Assembly (NCBI GenBank): GCA_003696445.1
Contig: RFHE01000269.1
Location: forward strand, 1 to 39,782
Length of the DNA: 39,782 nucleotides
Direction of reading: 5' to 3'
DNA from: Calditrichota bacterium
Lineage (GTDB): Bacteria; Calditrichota; Calditrichia; RBG-13-44-9; J042
Numbering within the stretch: position 1 is the stretch's first letter; every line of letters begins with the position of its first letter. The notes under the pieces are model-generated. The model saw only the letters and a program-made list of their open reading frames with translations, did no database searches and was not told the DNA's origin. The position numbers were made by a program, and so were the translations under genes. Shown here piece after piece: positions 8,688 through 34,835 of the stretch.

Positions 8688-11600
8688 GTGAACCGGATGT
8701 TCACACAAATCATTGACACAGTTTTTTCTTTTCTCGGACCCTCCACCCGGTCCAGAACGGCGAATTTGGAAGGACATTTTGAAGCCGACTTCCAGCAATT
8801 GCTGGCCAGCTTCAACCTTCTGCAGCCATCTCAACCTGCCCGTGCAAGGAAGGCTTCAACACTCCCAAACTCCCAGGCACCTCTCACCGTCGCCCGGCCG
8901 GCAGGTGTTCCGTTTAACATACATTTAAAGCACCTTCTCAAGAACCTTAACCTGTTTTTGAGAGGCGCAGGAAGAGGGGAGTTTGTCAGTCATCCTCGCC
9001 CAACAACCGGAACACCTGCCCGGACAGCGACGCCGGTAATAAAACAGCTGAAATCCTTCCCCGAAGACGAGCTACAAATTTTTTTTCACTTGCCGGCTCC
9101 TGCTGTCGTTGACTTACCGGCCAACGACCTATTCCCTGGGCCAGCAGTGTTGGAAGTCCAAGAAGTCAAGATGGCTGGGAAAGGGCTTATTCGATTTTCC
9201 GGCCCGGTGCAGAGGGAACACCCTGCTTCCGGTGCGGCTAATGCCCAGGCCGGGCCTTTGGCGGATTTGGCTGGGCCGGCCTTTTCCGGGCGGATGATGC
9301 CGGCTGCGCCCACCGATGGCGAGCATACTCCCGGTAAGGAAACCGTTCCGGAAGAGCTTACAGTGAAAGGAGGGCATTTTTCCCCCGATTCGGCCGCTGC
9401 CGGGCAAGGATTTCAAATAGCCGATTTGCAAAACAAAAAAAGCGGCGAGAAGACCACCAACGGTCCGGGCAAGCGTGCGGTAGAAGAGACAAACAGAGCA
9501 AAGGCCGCTTCCACCCAGAAGGCCCGGTTCGCGCAACCCATTCATGGAAATGAGCCCGCAAAGGCAGAATCCGGGGTGCAGAGCCGTGTTACAGGTGTCC
9601 AGAACCAGCGGAGGCAATTTGTTCAAACTCCCCGCATGCCAATCCTTCCTGGTTCCACAATTTTCTCTTCGCTCAAGGAAGTTGACGGAGCAAAATCGGC
9701 GGATTCACTCAGACCGTTCCCAGGTCCAGAAAAACCAAGTTTGAGCGCTATTGTTACCCTCCCCGTGGAGGTAAACTTGCAAGTGGAAGGTGGCCCGGCG
9801 CTCACTTTGATTGGTACTGCCGTGGCCGACGCGGCCGAAACAGACACAGTGTTCCTCTCTACCTCTGTAGCCCCAGCGGCGGCTCGGGAGGGACGCCTTC
9901 TAACCGAAGGGACGGCCAAGGTTGTTTACCAAAGCGGTTATTTGCCCTCCCTCAATTTTTCAAAAACGGCGCACGGGGTGTTTGGTGAAACCGATGCTCC
10001 GAGCACAGTTCCGCCCACATCCCGAGCGGTGAATCGGCCCATTGGTGAGGATGTGACTCAACCAGCCCTTGTGGAGGCCGATGGGTCAGCTTCAGTGAGC
10101 CGGCCACAGCCGGTTGCAGCGCTAAGGGAGGACCTGGCATCCATTTATTATTTGGTTCGGGAGGTGGTTGCACAATTAAAATTAGCGTCCACGGAGGGCG
10201 GCCCCGCCGTTTTTCACTTTCAGTTGAGTGCGACCGCCCCGCAGGTTCCCATGGGGGCTTCGCCCAGCGGTGCCGGCTTTGGCTTTTCAGAAAGCGCGTT
10301 TGAGCAGCACTCCACCGAGCAGACAACCACTCGGATTTTTTCCGGAGAGGCCCGCACGCCTGTGCACGTGACCATTCGCATGGGGCAGGAGGGCGTTGCG
10401 CAGGACTCGGCCGGTGGAACGGCTGCCTTGTTAGAACAGCTGGCACAAAAAGCCAGCCACAGGGGCAGTCGGATTTTGCAAACTCGCCCGGTTCGCCCGG
10501 ACGTGGCACAGGAAACAGCCTTTCAGCAGCCTGTAACCCCGGTGCAACCCTTGTCCAGAGGCGTGAAGATCCGTCCGGTGGTTCTGGCTGCCAGAGGACC
10601 TGTCATTGAAGTGATCGAAGGAAAGGTTGCTCAACCAACCACAGGGCGCATGGAAGCATCCGGCAGCAAGAGTGCCGCTTCCACGCCTTCTGTTCACGGT
10701 TCGGAGAAAGTGGTTTCGGTAAAAAACTTCACTGGCAGCTTTTTGCCCGAACCGATTAAGCTGGAAGAGGCGGCTCCTTCCTCCGCTACCCGGTCTCGAG
10801 TCCTCTCCGCGCAGGCGGTGCATCGTAATGCAGATGTTGCTGTACAGGCGGGGACTGTGTCGCTGCCCGGGCAGGGGGAACAGCAGGCGCTGAGCGCTGC
10901 ACCTGGAGGGGTAAAAATGAAAGAGCTTTCCGGGGCGCATCGGGAACGCCCGCACATGGGTGCACACGGGAGGGTTCGGTCGAGTAAGGCAAACAGGGAA
11001 CCTGCCCCGACGCCGGAAACCCATCAGCGGCTGGGCGGCCCGGGTCCGAAAAGCGCCCAGGTTGCCCGGGATCCACAAGTTGCACAGGCCGTGACGCCCG
11101 GGCAGATGGAAATGCCTCTCCGCGGAGGAGAAAGCCGGGCCATGCCCAATCCCAGGGCATTCCACATGGCCGGCGAACAGCAGATTCTGGAGACGGTGGC
11201 GACACCGGCGGGCAGGCAGGATGGGTACAGGCGGAGCGAGCCCGCTTTGCAGCCGACCCGGGAGGCGAACCCGACGCCCTCCAATGCGGGCAAGGTGGAA
11301 ACAGGCGGCCGGAGCAGCCAGCAATTTGGGGATCGGGAACAGGGCCAGGCCGAGCAGAGCACGCGCTCCTTTCACGGCACGCCCTCGGTTACCGTACAGC
11401 ATCGCCCGGTCCACATCAGTCTGGTGGTTTCTCAACCAGGGCAGTTACCGCAGCAACTGAGTGAGCTGTTCCAGCGCTGGGTGCGCCAACTGGACGCCCG
11501 TATCGGGTTCCACCAGCAGGACATTACCATTCAGTTGGAACCGGAAGCCCTAGGGGCCATGCGATTGAAACTGCAGTTAAAGGACAATGTGTTGCAGGGC

Positions 11601-11894
11601 AGGTTGGAAGTTTCTCAGCCGGAAACCGCGCGCCTGCTGCTTGCCCACCAGGGCAGTTTGACTCAGCGGATGGCCGACCTAGGGGTTCAGGTGGGGCAGC
11701 TGGAAGTTTCGGTTAATTCGGATTTGCCCTCCGGGACGCAGTTTACCGGTTCCCAGCAGGGCAATCAGCAAAACAGTGGCCATGGGGGTAACGGTACCCC
11801 GAGCGGCAGTACGGCCAGCGCCATGGCCGCTGCCGAACTGGAGACCAGCCACCATAAATGGCTGGGCTATAACACAATCGATTATCTGGCCTGA
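8688..11894 (+). CDS. fliK: Flagellar hook-length control protein FliK, very long
   Basis: C-terminal Flg_hook domain: QDITIQLEPEALGAMRLKLQLKDNVLQGRLEVSQPETARLLLAHQGSLTQRMADLGVQVGQLEVSV. Directly before flgD. Start could be 8688 or 8697. Confidence 0.9.
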   Translation: MNRMFTQIIDTVFSFLGPSTRSRTANLEGHFEADFQQLLASFNLLQPSQPARARKASTLPNSQAPLTVARPAGVPFNIHLKHLLKNLNLFLRGAGRGEFVSHPRPTTGTPARTATPVIKQLKSFPEDELQIFFHLPAPAVVDLPANDLFPGPAVLEVQEVKMAGKGLIRFSGPVQREHPASGAANAQAGPLADLAGPAFSGRMMPAAPTDGEHTPGKETVPEELTVKGGHFSPDSAAAGQGFQIADLQNKKSGEKTTNGPGKRAVEETNRAKAASTQKARFAQPIHGNEPAKAESGVQSRVTGVQNQRRQFVQTPRMPILPGSTIFSSLKEVDGAKSADSLRPFPGPEKPSLSAIVTLPVEVNLQVEGGPALTLIGTAVADAAETDTVFLSTSVAPAAAREGRLLTEGTAKVVYQSGYLPSLNFSKTAHGVFGETDAPSTVPPTSRAVNRPIGEDVTQPALVEADGSASVSRPQPVAALREDLASIYYLVREVVAQLKLASTEGGPAVFHFQLSATAPQVPMGASPSGAGFGFSESAFEQHSTEQTTTRIFSGEARTPVHVTIRMGQEGVAQDSAGGTAALLEQLAQKASHRGSRILQTRPVRPDVAQETAFQQPVTPVQPLSRGVKIRPVVLAARGPVIEVIEGKVAQPTTGRMEASGSKSAASTPSVHGSEKVVSVKNFTGSFLPEPIKLEEAAPSSATRSRVLSAQAVHRNADVAVQAGTVSLPGQGEQQALSAAPGGVKMKELSGAHRERPHMGAHGRVRSSKANREPAPTPETHQRLGGPGPKSAQVARDPQVAQAVTPGQMEMPLRGGESRAMPNPRAFHMAGEQQILETVATPAGRQDGYRRSEPALQPTREANPTPSNAGKVETGGRSSQQFGDREQGQAEQSTRSFHGTPSVTVQHRPVHISLVVSQPGQLPQQLSELFQRWVRQLDARIGFHQQDITIQLEPEALGAMRLKLQLKDNVLQGRLEVSQPETARLLLAHQGSLTQRMADLGVQVGQLEVSVNSDLPSGTQFTGSQQGNQQNSGHGGNGTPSGSTASAMAAAELETSHHKWLGYNTIDYLA

Positions 11895-22704: not shown

Positions 22705-24750
22705 ATGATTAAACGCAACAGCGACATTGTTCTGGCTGTGGGGGTCATTGTCATCTTGCTGCTGATGATTGTACCCATGCCCCCGGCCGTTTTGGATGTG
22801 CTGCTGGCTCTGAATATTTCCGTAGCGCTGGTGCTGTTGCTGGTTTCCATTTACTTGGTCAATCCCCTGGAGCTGTCGGTCTTCCCCAGCCTGCTGCTTA
22901 TTCTCACCCTGTTCCGCCTGGCCCTGAATATTGCCTCCACCCGGTTGATCCTGGGCGAAGCCTACGCCGGGGAGATTATCCGTTCCTTCGGCAGTTTTGT
23001 GGTGAAGGGCAATTATGTGGTGGGATTCATCATCTTTCTGATTCTGGTCATCATCCAGTTTGTGGTGATTGTAAAGGGAGCCGGACGCATTGCGGAAGTG
23101 GCTGCCCGCTTTACCCTGGATGCCATGCCCGGCAAGCAGATGAGCATCGATGCGGATCTGAACGCCGGGATAATTACTGAGGAGGAAGCCAAAGCCAGGC
23201 GCCAGCAGATTGCCCGCGAGGCGGACTTTTACGGTGCCATGGATGGTGCCAGCAAATTTGTCAAGGGCGATGCCATCGCCGGCCTCATTATTACTTCCAT
23301 TAACATTGTGGGCGGTTTAATCATCGGCATGGTTCAGATGGGCATGCCCTTAACCCAGGCCCTGCAAACCTACTCGCTGCTGACCATCGGCGACGGGCTG
23401 GTATCGCAGATCCCGGCTTTGCTGGTCAGCACTTCGGCCGGTATGGTGGTTACCCGGGCGGCCAGCGAGGACAACCTGGGCATCGATTTGAGTGAACAGC
23501 TCTTCGGCAAACCAAAAGCGCTTTACGTTGCTGCCGGAACGCTCACATTGTTCGGCTTTACCCCCGGCCTGCCGACCATTCCGTTTTTGATTTTGGCGGC
23601 CGTAGTGGGGACAATCGCCCGTACCGTTCAGCAGCGCGTACAGAGCGAGGAAGAGTTGGATGCTGGCGAGGAAGAGGCCCAGCTGCCGGCGAGCACCGAA
23701 CCGATCGAAGCCTACCTACAAGTCGATCCGCTGGAGCTTGAAATTGGCTACAATCTAATTCCCCTGGTCGATGCCGAACAGGGCGGCGATCTATTTGATC
23801 GCATCACTTCCATGCGCAAACAACTGGCCGTGGAAATCGGCATCATTGTGCCCCCCATTCGCGTGCGGGATAACCTCCAACTTTCGCCAAACGAATATGT
23901 AATCAAGATTCGAGGCAACGAAGTGGCCCGCAACGAACTGTTTGTTGGACAGTTGCTGGCCATGAATCCCGGTCATGTGGAAGAGGCCATCGAAGGCATC
24001 GAAGTGGTGGAGCCTGCCTTCGGGTTGCCCGCCGTGTGGATTTCCCCCGCCCAGCAGCAGGAGGCCGAACTGGCCGGCTACACGGTAGTGGAGCCATCGG
24101 CCGTGCTTGCCACACACTTGATGGAGGTCATCCGCAAGCATGCCGATAAATTGCTCGGCCGCCAGGAAGTCAACAAGCTCATCGAAAACCTAAAGAAGGA
24201 ATATCCAGCCGTCGTCGAAGAGCTGATTCCCGATCAGCTCAATCTGGGCGCCGTGCAAAAGGTGCTCCAGAACCTGCTGCGGGAAAACATCCCCATTCGG
24301 GACCTGGTAACCATTCTGGAAACCCTTGCCGATTATGCCAGCCTGACCAAAAATGTGGACGTACTCACCGAATATGTACGCTTTGCCCTGGCCGATACCA
24401 TCGCCAAACAATATCAGGACGAAAATGGGGTAATCCACGCCATTACCCTGGATGCCCAGATCGAGCAGTTGATTACCAATTCTGTCCAGAAACAAAAACA
24501 GGCCAGCAGTACCCTTGGATTGCCCCCGGCCGTTGTTCAGCAAATTCATCGCAGTGTGGCGCAATGTGTAGAGGTGGCCCTAAGCCATGGATACCAGCCG
24601 GTAATAGTCTGTTCGCCCACCATCCGGGCCTATTTCCGCAAGCTGATTGAGTCCGCTCTGCCCGATGTAGCGGTGATCTCCTTTGGCGAGTTGCCCAACG
24701 AAGTTCGCATTGAATCCATCGCAAAAGTGAGGATTGGCAATGAAAATTAA
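22705..24750 (+). CDS. flhA: Flagellar export protein FlhA
   Basis: LLILTLFRLALNIASTRLIL; RFTLDAMPGKQMSIDADLNAGIITEEEAKARR. Confidence 0.97.
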   Translation: MIKRNSDIVLAVGVIVILLLMIVPMPPAVLDVLLALNISVALVLLLVSIYLVNPLELSVFPSLLLILTLFRLALNIASTRLILGEAYAGEIIRSFGSFVVKGNYVVGFIIFLILVIIQFVVIVKGAGRIAEVAARFTLDAMPGKQMSIDADLNAGIITEEEAKARRQQIAREADFYGAMDGASKFVKGDAIAGLIITSINIVGGLIIGMVQMGMPLTQALQTYSLLTIGDGLVSQIPALLVSTSAGMVVTRAASEDNLGIDLSEQLFGKPKALYVAAGTLTLFGFTPGLPTIPFLILAAVVGTIARTVQQRVQSEEELDAGEEEAQLPASTEPIEAYLQVDPLELEIGYNLIPLVDAEQGGDLFDRITSMRKQLAVEIGIIVPPIRVRDNLQLSPNEYVIKIRGNEVARNELFVGQLLAMNPGHVEEAIEGIEVVEPAFGLPAVWISPAQQQEAELAGYTVVEPSAVLATHLMEVIRKHADKLLGRQEVNKLIENLKKEYPAVVEELIPDQLNLGAVQKVLQNLLRENIPIRDLVTILETLADYASLTKNVDVLTEYVRFALADTIAKQYQDENGVIHAITLDAQIEQLITNSVQKQKQASSTLGLPPAVVQQIHRSVAQCVEVALSHGYQPVIVCSPTIRAYFRKLIESALPDVAVISFGELPNEVRIESIAKVRIGNEN

Positions 24751-25939
24751 AAAGTTTACCGGGAAGTCGTTTCAAGAAGCCTTCGAGAGGATGCGTGAAG
24801 AACTGGGAGGTGAAGCGATCATTTTGAATTCGCGCAAGGTGAAACAAAACGGGCTGAATTTCATGGCCGGGCGGGAGCTGTACGAGATCACCGCCGCCAT
24901 CGATTCTGCCAATGGAACGACCCAACCTGCTGCGCCGGTTTACCGACGACCAAAACAGCTGGTTAATGAAGTGGGGAGTGCCCCAGTTCGTCACAATGGT
25001 AGCGGCAGGCAGGAAATGCCACCCGAACAAAAACTGGTTCTCCAACAATTGGGCGAGATCCGGGCTCTGAAAGACGATTTGCAGGACGTCAAAAAAGTGC
25101 TGGGCCAGGTGGCCGACTTTCTCAAATACAGCCGCATGCCGGCCCTTCCGGAAACTTTTAAAGCCCTCTTGAAAAAACTGGTGGACAACGAAGTCAACGA
25201 AGAACTGGCCACCGCTATTGTGCAAACCGTTTACGCCCGCATGGATGCCTCCAGCTTTAAGGATAGTGAGCGGGTTACCCGGGCGGTTTCCCAGCTAATA
25301 ACACGGATGTTAAAAACCGCACCACCCCTGGAGGTGGTAAAACGACGCCCCTACGTGGTGGCACTGGTTGGCCCGACCGGGGTAGGCAAAACCACCACTG
25401 TGGCGAAAATTGCCGCCAACCTCAAATTACATCACAACAAACGGGTGGCTCTGATTTCCGCCGATACGTACCGTATCGCCGCCATCGAGCAACTGCAAAC
25501 CTTTGCCAATATTGCCGGAATTTCCATGAGCGTGGCCTATAGCCCCCAGGACATGCGCGAAGCGATCAACAAATATCGAGATCGGGATTTGATTTTAATC
25601 GATACGGTAGGGCGCAGCCAGAAGCATGAGGCTCATTTGAACGACTTGCGCCAGTTTGTGGATGCTGCCAATCCAGACGAGGTGCATCTGGTGATGAATC
25701 TGACCGCCAGCCTGAAGACGCTGTTGGACGTGATTCGGCGCTTTTCGGTGATGCGCCCCAATCGGTTTCTGTTTACCAAGCTGGACGAAACCACCACCCC
25801 GGGCAACATGCTGAATGTGCTCTACAAGTATCAGACGCCGATTTCTTATGTAACCAATGGACAGACCGTACCCAACGACATTGCCAATGCTGAGGCCGAG
25901 GCGCTGGCGCAATTCATTTTGGATGGGGTAAATGATTAA
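24740..25939 (+). CDS. flhF: SRP-type GTPase FlhF
   Basis: MKIKKFTGKSFQEAFERMREELGGEAIILNSRKV; GPTGVGKTTTVAKIAANL; SADTYRIAAIEQLQTFANI; DTVGRS. Confidence 0.95.
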   Translation: MKIKKFTGKSFQEAFERMREELGGEAIILNSRKVKQNGLNFMAGRELYEITAAIDSANGTTQPAAPVYRRPKQLVNEVGSAPVRHNGSGRQEMPPEQKLVLQQLGEIRALKDDLQDVKKVLGQVADFLKYSRMPALPETFKALLKKLVDNEVNEELATAIVQTVYARMDASSFKDSERVTRAVSQLITRMLKTAPPLEVVKRRPYVVALVGPTGVGKTTTVAKIAANLKLHHNKRVALISADTYRIAAIEQLQTFANIAGISMSVAYSPQDMREAINKYRDRDLILIDTVGRSQKHEAHLNDLRQFVDAANPDEVHLVMNLTASLKTLLDVIRRFSVMRPNRFLFTKLDETTTPGNMLNVLYKYQTPISYVTNGQTVPNDIANAEAEALAQFILDGVND

Positions 25940-26799
25940 TGAAGGATCAGGCGGCACAATTACGCGAGCTGGTTCAGGATAATGGTCAATCGGTGGCTTC
26001 TTCGCCGGGCAGCGGCCAAATACACCTGGTGGCCAGCGGCAAGGGCGGGGTGGGTAAAAGTGTGTTTGCCCTGGCTCTGGCCGGTGCCTGGGCTCGCCTG
26101 GGCCTGCGCGTCCTGCTGGTGGATGCCGATTTGGCTTCCCCATCCCTCCATGTGCTCAGCGGGTTGGATGCTCCCTTCACTGTCCAGGTGATGTTGAAGC
26201 GCGGTGCGGAACGGCTCAACTTGGACCAGCTTCATTTAACGGAAAATCTCTGGCTGCTGCCGGGAAGCCATTCCGGAAGAGAGCAACACCTAGAGCAGAT
26301 GGCCGATGTGCACTATTTCGCCGAGCAGTTGGACCAACTTGCTCCCCGCTTCGACCGATTGTTGATCGACACTCGTACCGGTGTCAGCCGGTGGAACCTC
26401 GGGTTGTTCCAGTATGCGGACTGCATTTACCTGCTTACGCAAACGGAGCCGACCAGCGTAATCGAAACGTATTTGTTTGTCAAAGCGGTTCGCCCCTACC
26501 TGGATATGCGTAAGCTGCGCCTGGTGGTCAATCAGAGCCTCTCCGAAGAAGGAGCGTTGGAAGCCCATCACCATTTAAACCTTGCCCTGATGCATTTTTT
26601 GAAAACTCAGCTGCCCCTGGCCGCACATCTGCCCTTCGATCCAGAGCTGCGGGAAGCCCTAGTCAGTCAACTGCCTTTTTGGACCGAGGCACTAAGCACC
26701 ACTGCTTTAGACAAAATCCGGCAGCTGGCAAATAAAGAAAGTAACGCTGAACAAGAATCTGTGAATGTGATACCCAAAAACAGGGAGGTGCTGCCATGA
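25939..26799 (+). CDS. flhG: MinD-like ATPase FlhG (FleN/YlxH)
   Basis: N-terminal DQAAQLREL; deviant Walker A SGKGGVGKS; overlaps flhF and precedes fliA. Confidence 0.92.
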   Translation: MKDQAAQLRELVQDNGQSVASSPGSGQIHLVASGKGGVGKSVFALALAGAWARLGLRVLLVDADLASPSLHVLSGLDAPFTVQVMLKRGAERLNLDQLHLTENLWLLPGSHSGREQHLEQMADVHYFAEQLDQLAPRFDRLLIDTRTGVSRWNLGLFQYADCIYLLTQTEPTSVIETYLFVKAVRPYLDMRKLRLVVNQSLSEEGALEAHHHLNLALMHFLKTQLPLAAHLPFDPELREALVSQLPFWTEALSTTALDKIRQLANKESNAEQESVNVIPKNREVLP

Positions 26800-27053
26800 A
26801 ACAGCTCCCATTTAAGCTAAGCCTGCTGGTTTTCTTTATCGCTTTGCTCTCCGGCTTTTACAGCGAGCTCGGCCTGATGGAAAATTTGATTCGGGCTTTC
26901 GTGATTTACTTGGTTTTCTCGGTGATTGTTCTGCTGGTGATGCTGGTGCACACTCAGATTCAGTACAGTGTGCTGACCAGCCGGCAGCAGCGTAAACCAG
27001 CCGAGCAGGAAGCCCATTCGATGGCTATGGAAAATTCATTAAATCAACAATAA
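26796..27053 (+). CDS. Small two-TM membrane protein between flhG and fliA
   Basis: ATGA overlap with flhG. 85 aa with hydrophobic LSLLVFFIALLSGFYSELGL and LIRAFVIYLVFSVIVLLVMLV segments. Confidence 0.75.
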   Translation: MKQLPFKLSLLVFFIALLSGFYSELGLMENLIRAFVIYLVFSVIVLLVMLVHTQIQYSVLTSRQQRKPAEQEAHSMAMENSLNQQ

Positions 27054-27065
27054 AAGGGGCGAACC

Positions 27066-27821
27066 ATGAAAGCCACAGTCGATCCATTGTGGAAGAAGTA
27101 CTATGAATGTAAAACCGACGAGCTTCGGCAGCGCCTGATGGTGAAATATCTGGGTCTGGTTCACTATGTGGTGAACAAACTGTTCAAAAGCATTCCCCAG
27201 AACATTGAACGAAACGATCTGGTAAATATCGGCGTGCTCGGGCTCAGTGAGGCGCTGGATCGCTACAATCCCTATTTTGGAATCAAGTTCGAGACCTACG
27301 CCATTCCCCGCATCAAGGGGGCGATTATCGACGAACTACGAAAGCAGGACTGGATGCCCCGTTCCCTGCGGTCCAAATCCAACTTGATCAAAAAAGCCAT
27401 CGACGAGCTCGAGCAAACCACCCGTGGCGAGGTGTCCGACCAGGAAGTGGCCAACTATTTGGGCATCAGCGAAAAGGAATACCTGACCTGGCAGTCACAA
27501 CTGAACCGGACCAATGTGGTCTCCCTGGACAAACCTAATCCTAACTACGACGACCACAATTTGTACGAGGCCATTGAAGACCCAGCGGGGGAAAACCCTA
27601 TGGAGAACATGGAAAATGAAGAAATGAAAGCCCTGTTGGTTAAAATCATCAAGCAATTGCCGGAAAAAGCCCGCATGGCCATTACCCTCTACTATTACGA
27701 ACGACTTACCTTTAAAGAAATTGGCAAAATCCTCAATGTGTCGGAGTCGCGCATTTCTCAGATCCATTCGGAAACCATTGAGCGAATGCGAAAAATGTTA
27801 ACCAAAGAACTCTATGTCTGA
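27066..27821 (+). CDS. fliA: Flagellar sigma factor sigma-28 (FliA/WhiG)
   Basis: LVHYVVNKLFKSIPQNIERNDLVNIGVLGLSEALDRYNPYFGIKFETYAIPRIKGAIIDELRKQDWMPRSLR; region 4 LTFKEIGKILNVSESRISQIHSE. Confidence 0.97.
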   Translation: MKATVDPLWKKYYECKTDELRQRLMVKYLGLVHYVVNKLFKSIPQNIERNDLVNIGVLGLSEALDRYNPYFGIKFETYAIPRIKGAIIDELRKQDWMPRSLRSKSNLIKKAIDELEQTTRGEVSDQEVANYLGISEKEYLTWQSQLNRTNVVSLDKPNPNYDDHNLYEAIEDPAGENPMENMENEEMKALLVKIIKQLPEKARMAITLYYYERLTFKEIGKILNVSESRISQIHSETIERMRKMLTKELYV

Positions 27822-27974
27822 ATTTTCGACATCTGATGCTGGGGTGCCGGGCAGATTGGGCGCCAATTGCAAAGAGCGGGAAATTGTTACCTCAGTGTAA
27901 ACAATTACTTACGGAATGTACGGATGTGGCTGGTATTAAATTTGTAAGTTTTACTCAAGTCCGGGAGATGCACC

Positions 27975-28307
27975 ATGGCAGATCCCATTCAATTGCAGCA
28001 TCTGCAAACCGGGTCGCTTTCTGCGGAACGGCAATATCAGAGTCAGCGCAATTTACCCGAGTTGCAAAAACGTCTCTTTGAGGCTGAAGTTCTAAAACAG
28101 TTCGAGCTGACGCAACATACGGTAGAGGAGAGTGAGAAGACAGAGCGCAATCGCATTGATGGACGGCGACGTGAGCAGCAGGCCGGGAATGAACACGGCC
28201 CTGGCCGTCAAAAAAAGGACAAAGAATCTGAACAGCAGCCACCTTTTCAGCAAAAAATTGTGAAGGGTGAGGACGGGACTATTAAACATTTGGATGTAAA
28301 AATTTAG
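27975..28307 (+). CDS. Small highly charged protein downstream of fliA
   Basis: 110 aa, Q/E/K/R-rich, ends EDGTIKHLDVKI. Coding supported by position 3 nt before the next gene on the same strand. Confidence 0.65.
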   Translation: MADPIQLQHLQTGSLSAERQYQSQRNLPELQKRLFEAEVLKQFELTQHTVEESEKTERNRIDGRRREQQAGNEHGPGRQKKDKESEQQPPFQQKIVKGEDGTIKHLDVKI

Positions 28308-28310
28308 ACT

Positions 28311-29225
28311 ATGAAGAAGGAACGCATTGATCTGGATTTTCTGGAGCGGAAGGTAAAGAATCTGGCACGGCTTTCCACCCTGCCCCACGTAGCGGCCAAA
28401 GTGACCGAAATGGTGGAAAATCCTCGCACGTCCGCTTCCACCCTGGCCAAGATTATTTCTTCGGATCAGGTACTTGCTGCCCGGATTCTACGACTCGCGA
28501 ATTCGGCTTATTACGGATTTCCACGTAAGATATCCACCATTAATTTGGCCATTGTGGTGTTGGGATTTAATGCTCTACGGGACCTGGTGCTCTCCATTGC
28601 CGTGGTGGACCGGTTTCTAGAGAATCAACCCGATTCGGTGGACATGGATCAATTCTGGCGCCACGCGCTGATTGTAGGCATGGGGGCACGAGCCATTTCC
28701 CGTTTGAGTGGATATCCGGTGCCGGGAGAATGCTTTGTAACCGGTCTGGTTCACGACATCGGCTATTTGGTGCTGGTGCAGCATTTCAGTGCTCTTTTTG
28801 AGGAAATTTACCAGGTGGCCCAGGAAACCAACTGTCCCTTTCGGGAGGCAGAAAAGCGGGTTCTGGGCATCACTCATTCGGACATTGGTGCCTGGCTGGC
28901 CGAAGGATGGAACCTTCCCGAAAAACTGGTGCAGGCGGTTAAGTATCACCACGAACCGGAAAAGGCGCTGGTGCACACCGACCTGGTCTGGATTATTCAC
29001 TGGGCGGACAAAGTGAGCTACACCATTGGGGAAGGCAATGGTTTCCCTGCCGAAGAAGCCATCGACCCCGATCAGGTTGAGCAAGAACTGCAAAAACATT
29101 TCAAAGTAAACTGGCCGTTGGCCTTCTACCAGCGCAAATTTGAAGAAGAATCGCATAAAGTAAACGACTTTTTAGCCATTTTAACCCAACCTCCAAAGCC
29201 GGTTAAGCGTTTTGAATCTGTTTGA
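28311..29225 (+). CDS. HDOD domain protein
   Basis: LSTLPHVAAKVTEMVENPRTSASTLAKIISSDQVLAARILRLANSAYYGFPRKISTINLAIVVLGFNALRDLVLSIAV; GLVHDIGYLVL. Confidence 0.93.
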   Translation: MKKERIDLDFLERKVKNLARLSTLPHVAAKVTEMVENPRTSASTLAKIISSDQVLAARILRLANSAYYGFPRKISTINLAIVVLGFNALRDLVLSIAVVDRFLENQPDSVDMDQFWRHALIVGMGARAISRLSGYPVPGECFVTGLVHDIGYLVLVQHFSALFEEIYQVAQETNCPFREAEKRVLGITHSDIGAWLAEGWNLPEKLVQAVKYHHEPEKALVHTDLVWIIHWADKVSYTIGEGNGFPAEEAIDPDQVEQELQKHFKVNWPLAFYQRKFEEESHKVNDFLAILTQPPKPVKRFESV

Positions 29226-29253
29226 ACTGGCCAAACCCAAAGGGAGAATAGGG

Positions 29254-30690
29254 ATGTTTTCCAAACAGGCAATCCACCAGGACGTGGAGGATGCGTCGGC
29301 TGCCCGCAGCAAACGGGTGAGCCAGTCCGAAAAGTTGGCCGCATTGATTGAGGAATACGCCGCCGAAATTTCCCGGCTGAAAGCCGAAAACGAACGGCTG
29401 AGAGCCGCGGTGGAAAGCGAGCAGGCGGTTAGAGGGGATCTTTCGCTGTTTATGGACCAGTTTCTGACCATTCAGCGTGCCTCGAATTTGATTACACAGC
29501 ACCTGAGTTATCCCAAAATTGCCCGTGCTTTGCTGGATCTTTGCCGGCGAATTATCCCCGACGCCAACGGGGACCTGTATTTGTTCCAACACGATGGCTG
29601 GAGCGCTGCACTGAATGCCCCGGAGTTTCCTTATTACCCGCTGGTGGAACACATGCATGCCGAGGGCATTGTTGATTGGTTGTGGGAAAACGATAATACC
29701 ATTGTAGTTCCGGTGGACGATTTCGCTTTCCCGGTAATCAATCCGCCCAATGAGGGATGCTTCATTTGTGCCCCGCTGGTTTCCAATGGACACCGGTTGG
29801 GCATCTTATTGATTTACAGCCGCCAGGATCAAAAAGATTTTTCGCTGGAGAAACTGGAACTGCTAAATCTGCTGGTTAAGCAAAGTTCGGTGGCCATTCA
29901 ATACACCCGGTTGTACAAGCAACTGGAGCAGACCCACCAGGAGCTGAAAAACAGCCAGAAAAATCTGGTGCAGGCGATTCGCATGGCCACCGTGGGCGAA
30001 ATTTCGGGGGGTATAGCGCACGAGATTAACAATCCTCTGCAAATTATTCTCGGCAAAATTCAGATTTCGTTGATGAAAGATCCTAACAACGAAACCTTAC
30101 GCATGGTGGAAACCCAGGCCATGCGGATTGCAGCTATTGTGCGCGGCTTAATGACGCTGGCCCGGCAGAAGGATGTGCAAAGCCGCCAGTATGTTCCGGT
30201 GGCCTCTGTGCTGGAGCAAACCCTGGAGCTGGTCCGCGGTCAGATTGAAAAGCGCGGTGTTAAAGTAGGGATTAAAGTAGAGCCAAATCTGCCACTGGTA
30301 CATGTCAATACCGTTCAACTGCAACAAGTAATTCTGCATTTTCTGCTCAACGCCAAAAGGCAATTGGTCCACGGGGGGCAACTCACCGTGCATGTGGGCA
30401 TGCAAAAACCGGGATGGGTCAGCATTGAAATTAAAGATACCGGTGTGCCCATCGAGGCCGAGGTGCTTCAGGGGGCCCTAGAGCCGTTTACTGGAACCGG
30501 AAATCAATCCTGCTCGGAGAATCATCTGGGACTGACCGTGAGCGTTCAGATGATTCGAGAAATGGGTGGGGAGGTAGAAATGGAATCGGCTTCGGGCAAG
30601 GGCAATCGAATTGTGATTTATTTACCGCCATACAATGCGGAGGAACCAAGCAATGGCAATGGAGGCCTGCTGGAAACGGCGGCGGGGTAG
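29254..30690 (+). CDS. GAF-like domain sensor histidine kinase
   Basis: N-terminal coiled coil, GAF-like region, H-box MATVGEISGGIAHEINNPLQIILGKI, C-terminal HATPase-like region. ATG at 29254 after AGGGAG. Confidence 0.85.
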   Translation: MFSKQAIHQDVEDASAARSKRVSQSEKLAALIEEYAAEISRLKAENERLRAAVESEQAVRGDLSLFMDQFLTIQRASNLITQHLSYPKIARALLDLCRRIIPDANGDLYLFQHDGWSAALNAPEFPYYPLVEHMHAEGIVDWLWENDNTIVVPVDDFAFPVINPPNEGCFICAPLVSNGHRLGILLIYSRQDQKDFSLEKLELLNLLVKQSSVAIQYTRLYKQLEQTHQELKNSQKNLVQAIRMATVGEISGGIAHEINNPLQIILGKIQISLMKDPNNETLRMVETQAMRIAAIVRGLMTLARQKDVQSRQYVPVASVLEQTLELVRGQIEKRGVKVGIKVEPNLPLVHVNTVQLQQVILHFLLNAKRQLVHGGQLTVHVGMQKPGWVSIEIKDTGVPIEAEVLQGALEPFTGTGNQSCSENHLGLTVSVQMIREMGGEVEMESASGKGNRIVIYLPPYNAEEPSNGNGGLLETAAG

Positions 30691-32206
30691 TGGATTGACC
30701 CGCCTGGTAGCGCTCCTGCTGATCTGGACGATCTGCCAGGTGCCGCACCGTGCATTTTCTGAACTCATTGTTACCCAAACTGCACACAATAGCCATCTTC
30801 GTCTCTCCCTTCCTCCCGGCGTCGAAACGCGCCTGCTTAATTTTTCTCCTGCGCGGAAAATTTTGATCAAAATGATCGCCAATCAGCCCCTGGATACAAA
30901 ACGGTTGCTTGGCAGCTACCATTTCCCGGAAACTTCGGGTCTGATGGGGCTGCGCCTCTCCGAACTGGGAGCAAACAGCTATTTGCTGGTGGTGGAACTG
31001 GTCGATCGGCTGGAATTTACCCTCCAGTCCCAATCGGGTGCCCTCTCTCTGGAGGTGGCCGATGAGCCGTTTCACAATCTGCTCACCGCCTGGTACCTGC
31101 GCGGCCTTTACTATCAGCGCGCCGGCGATCTGGGCTCTGCGCTGCAGTACTACCGAAAAATTGTTTTTCGGAATCGATCCCACCCTTACGCTTACTTTAA
31201 AGCGGGGCAAATTCGGATGGCCTGGGGACAATACCGGTTGGCTGAAATCAATTTCAATAAGGCGCTGCACAACCAGTGCGATTCCACCGGCTTGTATCGG
31301 GATCTGGCTCGTCTTTACGAAAAAACCGGACGCGCTGCTCTGGCCACCAGGTATCGGCAAAAATACCAGCAGCATGTGCAGAAAGCTCCCTTGAAAGTGG
31401 ATTCCTCCCCGAAGAAATCAGAGAACGACCCTTTGAAGATTCGGCTGGTGGAGCATTCTACCACTTCGGACAGCGCCGGTGACACAGGAATGCAAACCTT
31501 GGCCGCTTCCGATAAGGGAGGACGCTCTGTTCGTTTGCACAAGGCTGCTTCGCTGCAACCCGCCGATCGAGCTTCTGCTAGGAACCGACCGGGAAAACAC
31601 AAGCCGATGCTTTCCGGGCAAGTGGTTTTGTTGATTGGTCTGGCATTTGCATCAATATTAATGGGGCTGGTAGTGTTTAGTTGGCTGCGGCGCCTGAATC
31701 CTTTTCCGGCACAGAAAAAACAGCCTGAACCAGAGCTGGACATGGATGCGTTTTTAGCGCAAAAAATGCGCTTGCTGAATTTGGCCAGCGAGGCCGGGTC
31801 CAATGAGCCATTGGAAGCAACCAATGGGGCTCCACTGCTCGAGGCGGAAAGCGAACCGGAACCTTCCCTTCCCGATTGGCCGGTCAGCCCTGGGGATGTT
31901 GCGCTTTCTCCGGTGGCAGAACTTGGAGAGCAGTCCGCGCCCCTGGCGGCACAGGAAAGCAAAGGTAGCAAAGTGCAGCGTTTGGCTCGGGAACTCAATG
32001 TGCCGGCTGGCGAACTGGAACTGGCGGTGAATCTTTCGGCAGGAAAAACAGATCCCTCCGTTCGAGCGGGAAATCCTGCTGCTGAAATTTTGAAACTCTA
32101 TCAGCAACATGTTCCCGTGGCCGAAATTGCGCGCAAAATGAATCTTGGACAGAACGAAGTTGAATTATATTTGAAGTTTCACAACGCACTAATGGTCAAT
32201 CCCTGA
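30653..32206 (+). CDS. AMIN-like + TPR + transmembrane protein with C-terminal helical motif
   Basis: N-terminal signal-like segment; LRLSLPPGVETRLLNFSPARKILIKMI...YLLVVELVDRLEFTLQS; TPR-like YYQRAGDLGSALQYYRKIVFRNRSHPYAYFKAGQIRMAWGQYRLAEINFNKAL; TM VVLLIGLAFASILMGLVVFSWL; C-terminal VAEIARKMNLGQNEVELYLKFH. SD GGAGG before ATG 30653. Confidence 0.75.
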   Translation: MAMEACWKRRRGSGLTRLVALLLIWTICQVPHRAFSELIVTQTAHNSHLRLSLPPGVETRLLNFSPARKILIKMIANQPLDTKRLLGSYHFPETSGLMGLRLSELGANSYLLVVELVDRLEFTLQSQSGALSLEVADEPFHNLLTAWYLRGLYYQRAGDLGSALQYYRKIVFRNRSHPYAYFKAGQIRMAWGQYRLAEINFNKALHNQCDSTGLYRDLARLYEKTGRAALATRYRQKYQQHVQKAPLKVDSSPKKSENDPLKIRLVEHSTTSDSAGDTGMQTLAASDKGGRSVRLHKAASLQPADRASARNRPGKHKPMLSGQVVLLIGLAFASILMGLVVFSWLRRLNPFPAQKKQPEPELDMDAFLAQKMRLLNLASEAGSNEPLEATNGAPLLEAESEPEPSLPDWPVSPGDVALSPVAELGEQSAPLAAQESKGSKVQRLARELNVPAGELELAVNLSAGKTDPSVRAGNPAAEILKLYQQHVPVAEIARKMNLGQNEVELYLKFHNALMVNP

Positions 32207-32229
32207 CCAGAGGCCTGTGTGGATAATCG

Positions 32230-33324
32230 ATGAGCCTGAAGATAAATCAGCTTCTGGAAGGCGACTTGCTTTCCGGGCGGGTCGTACGCCGGCTGGGGCC
32301 ATACCTGTTTGAGGTGGCCTTGTTGGGAGCTGTTCTCCCGGTCAACAGCAATGCCGGCCTGAGCGAAGGCCAACAGGTGCTGGTGCAAGTGCTGAAAAAA
32401 TCTCCAAGGCTTCATTTGAAGTTTCTAGGCACCTTGGATTCGAAAGGCCAGCGCGAGATTTTTCATCACCTCAGTCAGGTGGTGGGCAAAAGCCGCCCGC
32501 AATTTTTTGCCGCACTGCATCGTCTTCTGCAGAGCGAAACGGTTCCCCTAAACGCAACTCATTTGCGGAAATTAAACCGGCAATGGCTTCATTCCATTGT
32601 CTCCGATCCCCTGCACTGGTTATTACCCTATGCCCTTCAACGGGGGCTTTCCTTGCCCCAAGGCAGTTTTCGGGAAGACTTTCTCGTTGAGCTGTTTTTC
32701 AATTGTCCATCAAACAATTTAGATTGGGCAGCGCTCCTGTCGGATGGCGGTTGCCCTGGGGAAACGCCCGCCGGTCCGGGTTTTGAGCTGGTGGATCCAC
32801 CTGCTCTGAACGGTGGGCTCGACTGGAGAAAAGAACTGCTTAGCTTTGTGCGTCTCATGCTGAAGTTTAAAAACGGTTTTTTTCGAGTAGGACAAACCGA
32901 GAGTTTGTTGCCCGGAATCGGAGTTTTGGGCTTATATTTCCGGCGTCAAATGGATTGGCTTCGAGGCGGGAAGTGGGCTGTTTTTCCCAAAAGCGGCAAA
33001 GAGGAGAACCAGTTCTGGGGAGTGAAGATGACCGAACAGTTGATGGGGCCGCTGCAAGGGGAGTTTTTCTGGTTGTCTTCGTCGGCAAGGGCAGTATGGC
33101 TGGTTGGTGAGGGACGGTTAACGGGCGGGCGATTGAGCATTCGATTATTCGATTCCGGCCCGGTGGCACCGCTCCGAATCGAGCAAAAGGCACAGGCCCA
33201 ACTCGTTCAGGCGTGCAAGGCTTTGGGATACGAGGAGGTGTTTCTTTCCTGTACCCCGCACAGGGATGTGTTGAGCGTACTGTCCAAATTAGCCAACACT
33301 AAACACTGGGAGTGGTCATGCTGA
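32230..33324 (+). CDS. FliK-like (second hook-length-control-like) protein
   Basis: N-terminal GDLLSGRVVRRLGPYLFEVALLGAVLPVNSNAGLSEGQQVLVQVLKKSPRLHLKFLG; C-terminal LTGGRLSIRLFDSGPVAPLRIEQKAQAQLVQACKALGYEEVFLSC resembles a divergent Flg_hook fold. Confidence 0.55.
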   Translation: MSLKINQLLEGDLLSGRVVRRLGPYLFEVALLGAVLPVNSNAGLSEGQQVLVQVLKKSPRLHLKFLGTLDSKGQREIFHHLSQVVGKSRPQFFAALHRLLQSETVPLNATHLRKLNRQWLHSIVSDPLHWLLPYALQRGLSLPQGSFREDFLVELFFNCPSNNLDWAALLSDGGCPGETPAGPGFELVDPPALNGGLDWRKELLSFVRLMLKFKNGFFRVGQTESLLPGIGVLGLYFRRQMDWLRGGKWAVFPKSGKEENQFWGVKMTEQLMGPLQGEFFWLSSSARAVWLVGEGRLTGGRLSIRLFDSGPVAPLRIEQKAQAQLVQACKALGYEEVFLSCTPHRDVLSVLSKLANTKHWEWSC

Positions 33325-34529
33325 AGCGTCCCGGTACCGGTCACAAATCTGCACGAATCCTGATTGTGGAGGACAATCCGGAAAGCATTGATTTACTGGT
33401 CTATTTTCTCAAACCAGCCGGCTACGAAATCATGACGGCGCAGGATGGGCTTAGCGCCATTGAAATTGTGGAAAAAGACCCTCCGGACTTGATTTTACTG
33501 GATATCATGTTGCCCCGGCTGGACGGCTTCCAAGTTTGCGAACGGCTTAAGAAAAATGAACATACCTTCCACATACCCATTATCATGATTACCGCTCTAA
33601 AAGAATTGAAGGACAAGATCCGCGCCCTGGAAGCCGGCGCCGACGATTTTGTCTCCAAGCCTTTCGACAGCATTGAACTGCTGGCGAGGGTCAAATCGTT
33701 GCTCCGCCTCAAGTTTTACCACGACGAACTCATTCGCCGTAATCAGGAGCTGGAACGCCAAAAGCGCATGCTGCTGCGCGAGGATCAGTTAAAAAAGGAA
33801 TTAACTCATCTGATTGTCCACGACATGAAAAATCCACTGTTCGTTATTCAGGGCAATTTACAGATGATGCACATGCAGAAGCAGGCCGGCAGCGGTGAAT
33901 CCGACGAGAAATACACCCGGCGGATTGAACGCAGCAGCCGGGGCCTGCTCCGGATGATTCTGAATTTGCTGGACATCAGCCGCCTGGAGCAACGCACCCT
34001 GGATATTGAACCCATTCCTGTGCCCTTGAAAACCCTGATTATGGAAGTGGTAGAATACTTCCGGGACATGCCCGAACACGCCAGCAAAACGGTGGAATTT
34101 CGCCTTCCGGAAAACCTGCCCGAAGCGTATGTGGACCAGGAGGTGTTCGAGCGCATTCTGGACAATTTGATGAATTACGTCTTTCAGAACACCCCCGAGT
34201 ATATGCAAATCACTGTGAAAGCGGAAACCGGAGAGGACGGCTACAATTACCTGAAGATTTTTCATCAAGGTACACCCATTCCCAAACAGTATGCGGAGAA
34301 GGTGTTTAAAAAATACGCCCAGAGCGAGCTGAAAAAAGCCGGAATTAAGCCGGCACGCGGCCTCGGGCTCATCTTCTGCAAGCTGGCCATGGAAGCCCAT
34401 CATGGCGATATTCGCCTGATACCGGTGGAGGATCAGGGCAATTGCTTCATTTTGAAAATTCCCACCCTAAAGGCGCATAGCTATCTCTCCAAAAAGGAAA
34501 TGACTACCAGCGCCGTAAACAGCCCCTGA
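33318..34529 (+). CDS. Response regulator receiver fused to a histidine-kinase-like module
   Basis: Receiver: ILIVEDNPESIDLLVYFLK...DLILLDIMLPRLDGFQVCERLK...IIMITALKE...GADDFVSKPFD. H-box LTHLIVHDMKNPLFVIQGNLQ; HATPase-like C-terminus. Confidence 0.9.
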   Translation: MLKRPGTGHKSARILIVEDNPESIDLLVYFLKPAGYEIMTAQDGLSAIEIVEKDPPDLILLDIMLPRLDGFQVCERLKKNEHTFHIPIIMITALKELKDKIRALEAGADDFVSKPFDSIELLARVKSLLRLKFYHDELIRRNQELERQKRMLLREDQLKKELTHLIVHDMKNPLFVIQGNLQMMHMQKQAGSGESDEKYTRRIERSSRGLLRMILNLLDISRLEQRTLDIEPIPVPLKTLIMEVVEYFRDMPEHASKTVEFRLPENLPEAYVDQEVFERILDNLMNYVFQNTPEYMQITVKAETGEDGYNYLKIFHQGTPIPKQYAEKVFKKYAQSELKKAGIKPARGLGLIFCKLAMEAHHGDIRLIPVEDQGNCFILKIPTLKAHSYLSKKEMTTSAVNSP

Positions 34530-34610: not shown

Positions 34611-34835
34611 ATGAAAAAGCTGTATCGTTCCCGCAGGGACAAAAAACTGGGTGGGCTGATTGGCGGTCTGGCTGAATACCTGGAGGTCGATTCCAATCTC
34701 CTCCGGCTATTGACCATTCTGGTGGCCTTTTTTACCGGCTTTGCTCCAGTAGTGCTCACCTATGTAATCGGCTGGCTGATTGTGCCGGAAGAGCCTGAGC
34801 TGGCCGATGAACCTCAACCAGTTAAATCCAGCTGA
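34611..34835 (+). CDS. PspC domain protein
   Basis: MKKLYRSRRDKKLGGLIGGLAEYLEVDSNLLRLLTILVAFFTGFAPVVLTYVIGWLIVPEEP; SD AAAGGAGG. Confidence 0.93.
   Translation: MKKLYRSRRDKKLGGLIGGLAEYLEVDSNLLRLLTILVAFFTGFAPVVLTYVIGWLIVPEEPELADEPQPVKSS

Follow-up and report, generated by a model that had tools for sequence, protein, structure and literature searches.

The genes that follow fliA in an uncultured Calditrichota-type bacterium form a conserved cassette at the end of a flagellar gene cluster. The DNA analyzed, referred to here as the window, is the entire contig C310 (RFHE01000269.1; 39,782 nucleotides, nt) of a 3.3 Mb draft genome that is 89% complete. Behind fliA, six genes on the plus strand encode a small charged protein of 110 amino acids (27975..28307), an HDOD protein (28311..29225; PF08668, 7.6e-65), a histidine kinase homologue with GAF, HisKA and HATPase domains (GAF-HK; 29254..30690), a protein with TPRs and a transmembrane (TM) helix (TPR/TM protein; 30653..32206), a second FliK-like protein (FliK2; 32230..33324), and a protein combining a receiver, a DHp and a degenerate HATPase domain (RRHK, with REC, HisKA and HATPase matches; 33318..34529). 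Order, strand and coordinates agree exactly with the initial annotation of this DNA, and recomputation returned the junctions it had given, with gaps of 3 nt and 28 nt, a 38-nt overlap, a gap of 23 nt and a 7-nt overlap. The start of GAF-HK at 29254 (MFS...) is backed by an alignment of orthologues. Two features not included earlier are the 153-nt gap between fliA and the cassette and a PspC-domain gene downstream (34611..34835, plus strand; PF04024, 6.7e-21), whose position is conserved and which is the last gene of the conserved stretch.

Upstream of the cassette, the gene order is standard: fliK, flgD, flgE, motA, motB, fliL, fliM, fliN, fliO, fliP, fliQ, fliR, flhB, flhA, flhF, flhG, an 85-amino-acid two-TM gene, and fliA, with fliN and fliQ assigned from position and from the matches of relatives. 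The canonical fliK (8688-11894) carries PF02120. Closest to the cassette, all on the plus strand, are flhF (24734..25939), encoding a signal recognition particle-type GTPase (PF00448, 1.7e-43) and syntenic in relatives; flhG (25939..26799), encoding a MinD-like ATPase recognized by ParA/CbiA/BcsQ-type Pfam matches and synteny; the FlgV-like two-TM gene (26796..27053); and the gene for a FliA-family sigma factor, here called sigma-A (27066..27821; TIGR02479, 1.9e-76), assigned also by its place in a tree. Sigma-A scored 256.7 bits against the FliA_WhiG model (cut-off 189.6) and sits within the flagellar operon. The six genes appear to be the tail of a single flhA-flhF-flhG-flgV-fliA operon, with which they would be co-transcribed.

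Conservation was evaluated in a sample of 385 genomes, nearly all of them drafts, with PF00771 used to recognize flhA. The named contigs that match relatives of the window are metagenome-assembled genomes (MAGs) of Calditrichota or candidate division KSB1; G001, G002 and G003 belong to the same family as the window, and G012, G014 and G013 to two further families. The order flhF-flhG-2TM-fliA-(small)-HDOD-GAFHK-TPR/TM-FliK2-RRHK was kept in all six flagellated relatives as far as their contigs reach, several of which stop inside the cluster, giving seven flagellated genomes of the order (Calditrichota/KSB1) with the window included. The small gene is missing in G012 and G014. In G002, RRHK is followed by fapA (PF03961, identified by Pfam) and then pspC, and a gene as long as fapA lies at this position in G003 and G014; in the window there is no fapA between RRHK and pspC, and pspC is retained. 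Identity to the window proteins inside the order ranges from 20-22% (FliK2) up to 59-73% for RRHK, the most conserved of the six. One unrelated lineage of the 385-genome sample, represented by G229, has a near-complete copy in the order fliA-small-HDOD-GAFHK-TPR/DUF6115-FliK2-receiver-FlhX, and partial copies with fliA, HDOD, then a kinase plus a DUF6115 or TPR protein, contigs permitting, occur in G232, G090, G333, G368 and G094. Because the order is kept in seven flagellated genomes and a near-complete copy exists elsewhere, the six genes constitute a real operon. A distribution scan of GTDB with the TPR/TM protein gave only six loci, the named ones being Calditrichota/KSB1, so the cross-lineage copies were detected solely through profiles. 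The proposal of an accessory flagellar operon linked to flhF, flhG and fliA is thus borne out by synteny across relatives and by similar sets in other lineages.

The ground plan of the cassette is already known, since the 85-amino-acid gene fits FlgV and the TPR/TM protein fits a TM+HTH protein. A recurrent flagellar sub-module has been described that comprises flhF-flhG, FlgV, sigma28, FapA, YjfB and a TM+HTH protein (PMC11607428). In that work FlgV has two TM helices with an intramembrane Arg in TM2 and is located between flhF/flhG and sigma28; HDOD proteins, kinases and Calditrichota do not come up in the text (PMC11607428). FlgV is further characterized by its position at the basal body and by a deletion phenotype of fewer or shorter filaments. 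The 85-amino-acid gene lies between flhG and fliA, its product has two TM helices as read from sequence, and Arg33 in TM2 is invariant in eight aligned orthologues. The window shares with the sub-module flhF-flhG, the two-TM protein with a TM2 Arg, sigma28, one small protein, a TM protein whose C-terminus has an HTH-like motif and, in relatives, FapA, but adds HDOD, GAF-HK, RRHK and FliK2, and its TM+HTH protein bears AMIN-like and TPR domains. The window small protein was not matched to YjfB. The statement that the genes fit no standard flagellar operon was therefore too strong: FlgV, sigma28, FapA, the small protein and the TM+HTH protein make up a published sub-module. In the literature searched, no mention was found of the HDOD protein, FliK2, either kinase homologue, the fusion of AMIN-like and TPR domains, or sigma and RRHK paired in the absence of flagella.

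Sigma-A and RRHK stay together across the class, including genomes in which the flagellum differs or is absent. In families f4 to f6 and some f2 genomes, the flagellar fliA (type B) is only ~30% identical to that of the window, and behind it come genes for an OB-like protein of ~100 amino acids and a kinase. The sigma-A orthologues of these genomes (52-77% identity to the window's) are located elsewhere and are followed by RRHK, which is found in this way where the flagellum uses a different fliA; sigma-A orthologues elsewhere lie outside flagellar loci. Across the class 29 loci were examined, window included, and at 27 of them RRHK was encoded close to sigma-A, with both genes on one strand. 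The two exceptions were a contig edge (G030) and a locus with pspC in RRHK's place (G008). Eight genomes carried the pair with no PF00771 match (G004, G005, G009, G016, G019, G025, G028, and G038); the G005 assembly consists of one contig of 4.06 Mb. The locus in G005 and G009 consists of FlhG-like, sigma-A, HDOD, GAF-HK and RRHK genes; the small, TPR/TM and FliK2 genes are absent from it, and the TPR/TM and FliK2 proteins were unmatched in either genome. HDOD, GAF-HK and RRHK go with the sigma factor rather than with the flagellum, and the small, AMIN-like/TPR/TM and FliK2 genes are found only with this flagellum. FlgM was present with the type-A flagellum in G001, G002, G003, G012 and G014; a search of G004, G005, G007, G008 and G009 did not find it.

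The initial annotation had taken all six genes as one dedicated module for flagellar placement, number or hook assembly, with the HDOD protein and the kinases as its own regulators. Such a module would explain the operon and why it is syntenic with flhF/flhG/fliA in each of the flagellated type-A genomes, as well as the similar order in other flagellated lineages. However, there are genomes without flhA that still have HDOD, GAF-HK and RRHK together with sigma-A, and RRHK is present where a different fliA serves the flagellum. Homologues lying apart from flagellar genes had been named as evidence that would speak against the module, and they exist for three of the six genes, so we give this explanation little credence.

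In a tree of sigma factors, which has long branches outside the sigma-A clade, all sigma-A sequences fell into one clade (100/100) in which flagellar and non-flagellar loci are intermixed. This clade adjoins the flagellar FliA of G094, G368 and G237, whose downstream genes resemble the cassette, and type-B flagellar FliA forms a separate clade. Read most simply, the ancestral operon was flagellar, and the flagellum was then repeatedly lost or replaced, sigma-A and the signalling genes being retained. The adjacency of sigma-A and RRHK could then be purely historical, a leftover of the ancestral operon with no functional coupling, as the FlhG-like, FliL-like, FlgV-like and PspC remnants around sigma-A in G005, G006 and G009 would suggest. 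Against this, the pair has stayed together at 27 of 29 loci over all families sampled even as other neighbours disappeared, and none of the six proteins is better conserved than RRHK, which makes a mere leftover quite improbable. A flagellar-operon remnant in G006 (L144 5106-10049) comprises FliL-like, FlgV-like, sigma-A, kinase homologue, RRHK and PspC genes and lies away from the type-B flagellar locus. G008 (L230 3006-9999) and G015 (L231 3-5293) have no normal flhA, and carry large open reading frames of ~620 to >1600 amino acids that match C-terminal FHIPEP/FlhA at ~22-24% identity, in two neighbouring copies.

Neither kinase homologue has a full set of conserved ATP-site residues, contrary to the earlier description of two kinases. 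An active histidine kinase would be expected to have the N-box Asn and the G1/G2 boxes of the HATPase, a set that RRHK does not have. Aligned to KdpD, its N-box Asn position is Tyr in the window and Phe or Tyr in 26/26 homologues, and most members of the window's order have His in place of the G1 Asp. Both the receiver Asp and the DHp His are conserved; for the Asp, 26 of 27 rows are in register, G004 being divergent around it. In GAF-HK the DHp motif HEINNP is invariant, the G2 box of the ATP lid (GxGLGL) is lost in all, and the N-box Asn is lost in most relatives, where N, T, S, H and D occur. Both proteins could still be ordinary active kinases in a relay that tolerates these losses, given that the GAF-HK of the window retains the N-box Asn and the G1 Asp and that the DHp motifs are invariant. 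The complete replacement of the N-box Asn in RRHK and the disappearance of the G2 box from every GAF-HK, along with the N-box variation, argue otherwise, and we think an active relay unlikely. GAF-HK and RRHK are likely to be signal-receiving or binding proteins rather than kinases. A 111-amino-acid gene with an Hpt domain (PF01627) was observed ~1 kb upstream of sigma-A in G021 (L154 4107-4442), and other f5/f6 genomes have equally sized genes in this position. The Hpt gene is a possible candidate for the phosphate donor of the RRHK receiver.

The HDOD protein belongs to a fliA-linked subfamily, because 10 of its 11 best non-orthologous matches in the sample directly follow a FliA gene on the same strand at ~80-520 bp. 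The eleventh (G138) starts at a contig edge. The next-ranked matches, where a listed fliA permitted checking, were not adjacent to fliA; positions of HDOD and fliA were compared by eye among the matches listed. No paper tying HDOD to fliA operons in this arrangement was found in the literature searched. In G194 (L088 17451-18377) an HDOD gene lies between fliQ and fliR, a different position in the flagellar operon.

The TPR/TM protein is predicted to contain a signal anchor, a periplasmic AMIN-like beta-sandwich, TPRs, a TM helix and a cytoplasmic tail of FipA/SwrB type. A structure model (517-amino-acid numbering) placed an N-terminal helix, a beta-sandwich at 38-136, TPR helices at 143-244, and the TM helix at 323-348, followed by a disordered stretch and a helical C-terminus. 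The last 35-40 residues (32069..32173, plus strand) match DUF6115 (PF19610) over its cut-off and DUF2802 under it: the former at 1.5e-6 and 29.1 bits (gathering 27), over only C-terminal model positions 97-131 of 134, the latter at 0.0037 and 17.9 bits, short of the cut-off of 33.5 that would mark a FipA. Compared by coordinates, the two models match the same 25 places in 24 genomes, so DUF6115 and DUF2802 describe one motif. Nothing on DUF6115 was found in the literature searched. The tails keep the FipA spacing G-x15-E-x2-L: among 29 aligned, G stands in 20 (N in 6), E in 26 and L in 22, the L position being taken by other hydrophobic residues in the rest; the rows were chosen by profile, and this conservation is partly by construction. 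A 150-amino-acid protein of G321 with an N-terminal TM helix, which is over the DUF2802 cut-off, has G, E and L at 0/16/19.

FipA binds FlhF, is required for polar flagella, needs its G and L for binding, and has been described as confined to gammaproteobacteria (PMC11620751). Most relatives have G-x15-E-x2-L, and the window tail reads H-x15-E-x2-L: of the residues corresponding to G110, E126 and L129 of VpFipA, Glu and Leu are present, and Gly is His, or Asn in close relatives. Because of this His, we do not call the TPR/TM protein a FipA. The two are alike in being membrane proteins with a cytoplasmic C-terminal motif that keeps E and L and in having genes near flhF-flhG-fliA, but FipA has ~160 amino acids against ~520 here, where there is also a large predicted periplasmic part. 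The envelope-spanning protein of the initial annotation thereby acquires a C-terminal motif in common with an experimentally known FlhF partner (PMC11620751), which makes a role in placement concrete. The accompanying AMIN-like label is plausible but unproven, resting on a confidently predicted beta-sandwich.

An alternative is that the TPR/TM protein is not an FlhF landmark but an activator of the export apparatus like SwrB, which in Bacillus subtilis is a single-pass protein that activates this apparatus through FliP (PMC4526659), so that it would act in basal-body completion. Its best Pfam match, DUF6115, also matches a protein of B. subtilis that may be SwrB, SwrB and the TPR/TM protein are both single-pass flagellar proteins, and a second FliK is encoded in the same operon. 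SwrB has no periplasmic domains, whereas the TPR/TM protein has large ones that suit a landmark better, the DUF2802 model of FipA matches the same motif, and the gene sits with flhF-flhG. We regard an exclusively SwrB-type role as possible but doubtful, and the two roles need not be mutually exclusive. The TPR/TM protein probably works like FipA or like SwrB, and we have moderate confidence that the motif has a shared function. There is also a functional analogy to the polar landmarks HubP and FimV, which have a wall-side periplasmic domain, a TM helix and a cytoplasmic part reaching FlhF. They differ in having LysM in place of the AMIN-like domain and the FimV C-terminal domain in place of the FipA-type motif. 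The motif links DUF6115 (SwrB type) and DUF2802 (FipA), Pfam families that are treated apart, and if it serves FlhF, the FipA-type landmark of gammaproteobacteria may be far wider than reported.

FliK2 of the window has no Pfam match, and PF02120 (Flg_hook) was not detected in it; the FliK-like label is supported by its orthologues. Of nine aligned relatives, six showed PF02120 at E <= 1; the match was above the cut-off in G012 (1.6e-7) and G125 and stood at 5.5e-5 in G014. The protein has an N-terminal OB/S1-like barrel, according to a model, and a C-terminal Flg_hook-like region, and it weakly matches the PscP switch domain 5cuk. A second FliK paired with FlhX is known as the YlqG/YlqH type. 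FliK2 resembles this type in its FliK-like nature, in the Flg_hook region of its orthologues and in the nearby FlhX of G210 (directly after FliK2) and G229 (one gene further), but differs in that there is no FlhX beside it in the window. At type-B loci (L072 5093-5377, L077 5071-5391) the protein after FliA, of ~95-105 amino acids, resembles the N-terminal OB-like barrel of FliK2 and is followed by a PAS or GAF kinase.

We are highly confident of the gene order, the synteny, the two sigma lineages, the pairing of sigma-A with RRHK and the loss of ATP-site residues in RRHK. The functions proposed next are read from sequence alone. The best explanation, which we favor somewhat, is an elaborated sigma-28 operon of two halves, one bound to the flagellum and one to the sigma factor. 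The flagellum-bound half would consist of the small protein, the AMIN-like/TPR/TM protein and FliK2. The TPR/TM protein would span the inner membrane, its periplasmic AMIN-like/TPR part touching the wall or envelope and its cytoplasmic FipA/SwrB-type tail holding FlhF or licensing the nascent basal body, and a single chain would thus do the job of a HubP-like landmark and FipA in gammaproteobacteria. FliK2 would act in the export-specificity switch. The sigma-bound half, HDOD, GAF-HK and RRHK, would set the activity of sigma-A. The RRHK receiver may be phosphorylated by some donor, and the invariant DHp and degenerate GHKL domain may serve as a protein-binding output, toward the sigma factor or an anti-sigma partner, rather than as a kinase. 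Our confidence in direct control of sigma-A by RRHK is low. A phospho-gated GHKL-type switch of this kind, acting beside FlgM in flagellated genomes and alone after flagellum loss, is a tentative proposal and more apt to be wrong than right.

Several points weigh against the two-half explanation. Gene absences in MAGs are weak evidence. The GAF-HK of the window may still bind ATP. Fold searches with the TPR/TM protein returned TPR proteins only, a profile search of the PDB for AMIN returned nothing, and PF11741 (AMIN) had no match in the window protein and a single match, in one distant orthologue, below the cut-off (0.0093). The Gly position occupied by His or Asn in the tail is one whose Ala mutant in FipA abolishes FlhF binding. 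The adjacency of sigma-A and RRHK could mirror common regulation in place of the contact that we infer. Finally, the FliA consensus TAAA-N14-16-GCCGATA showed no clear excess over a reversed-pattern control in eight genomes, and for this reason a sigma-A regulon was not obtained.

The class-wide loci show that a sigma factor of flagellar type and the signalling protein paired with it outlive the loss or replacement of the flagellum. Sigma-28-family factors kept without a flagellum are exemplified by WhiG and chlamydial sigma28. Sigma-A is like these in being retained in the absence of a flagellum, but differs in that a receiver-pseudokinase accompanies it, as does the HDOD/GAF-HK pair in some genomes. 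Because a conserved partner survives with sigma-A, the question of what a "flagellar" sigma factor does without flagella, as in WhiG and Chlamydia, becomes testable. The sigma28 of Chlamydia has been treated elsewhere (PMC10597470).

The small charged protein has a conserved C-terminus, G-x-[IV]-x-H-[LI]-D-[VI]-K-I, and its profile matches adjoin fliA in other lineages (L086, L139, and L140). No Pfam or NCBIfam match carrying a function was found for it. FlgM was considered as its identity and rejected: there was no FlgM match in G000, and relatives carry FlgM on other contigs. Alignment of the region separating the small gene from fliA revealed a conserved element, CTGGTATTAAATTTGTA (TTGGTAT-N4-TTTGTA; 27930..27946, plus strand), as a candidate internal promoter ~30 nt before the small-gene start. 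It was kept in 5/5 genomes with the small gene and absent in G014, which is without it, and the exact pattern occurs once in the window. The element resembles a -24/-12 promoter (GG-N10-GT, with GT for GC). A short imperfect hairpin spans the fliA stop codon (27815-27840), and in relatives, in an alignment read by eye, it is apparently kept with paired changes (AGTGT/ACACT, ATGTC/GACAT, TGTTT/AAACA). Sigma-70 promoter-like sites were at shuffle level (5 vs 5.6 expected), and terminator-like sites, somewhat above it (17 vs a mean of 11.2, standard deviation 3.6), were not used. An Rfam scan of the window gave a single match, a tRNA gene at 2657-2729.

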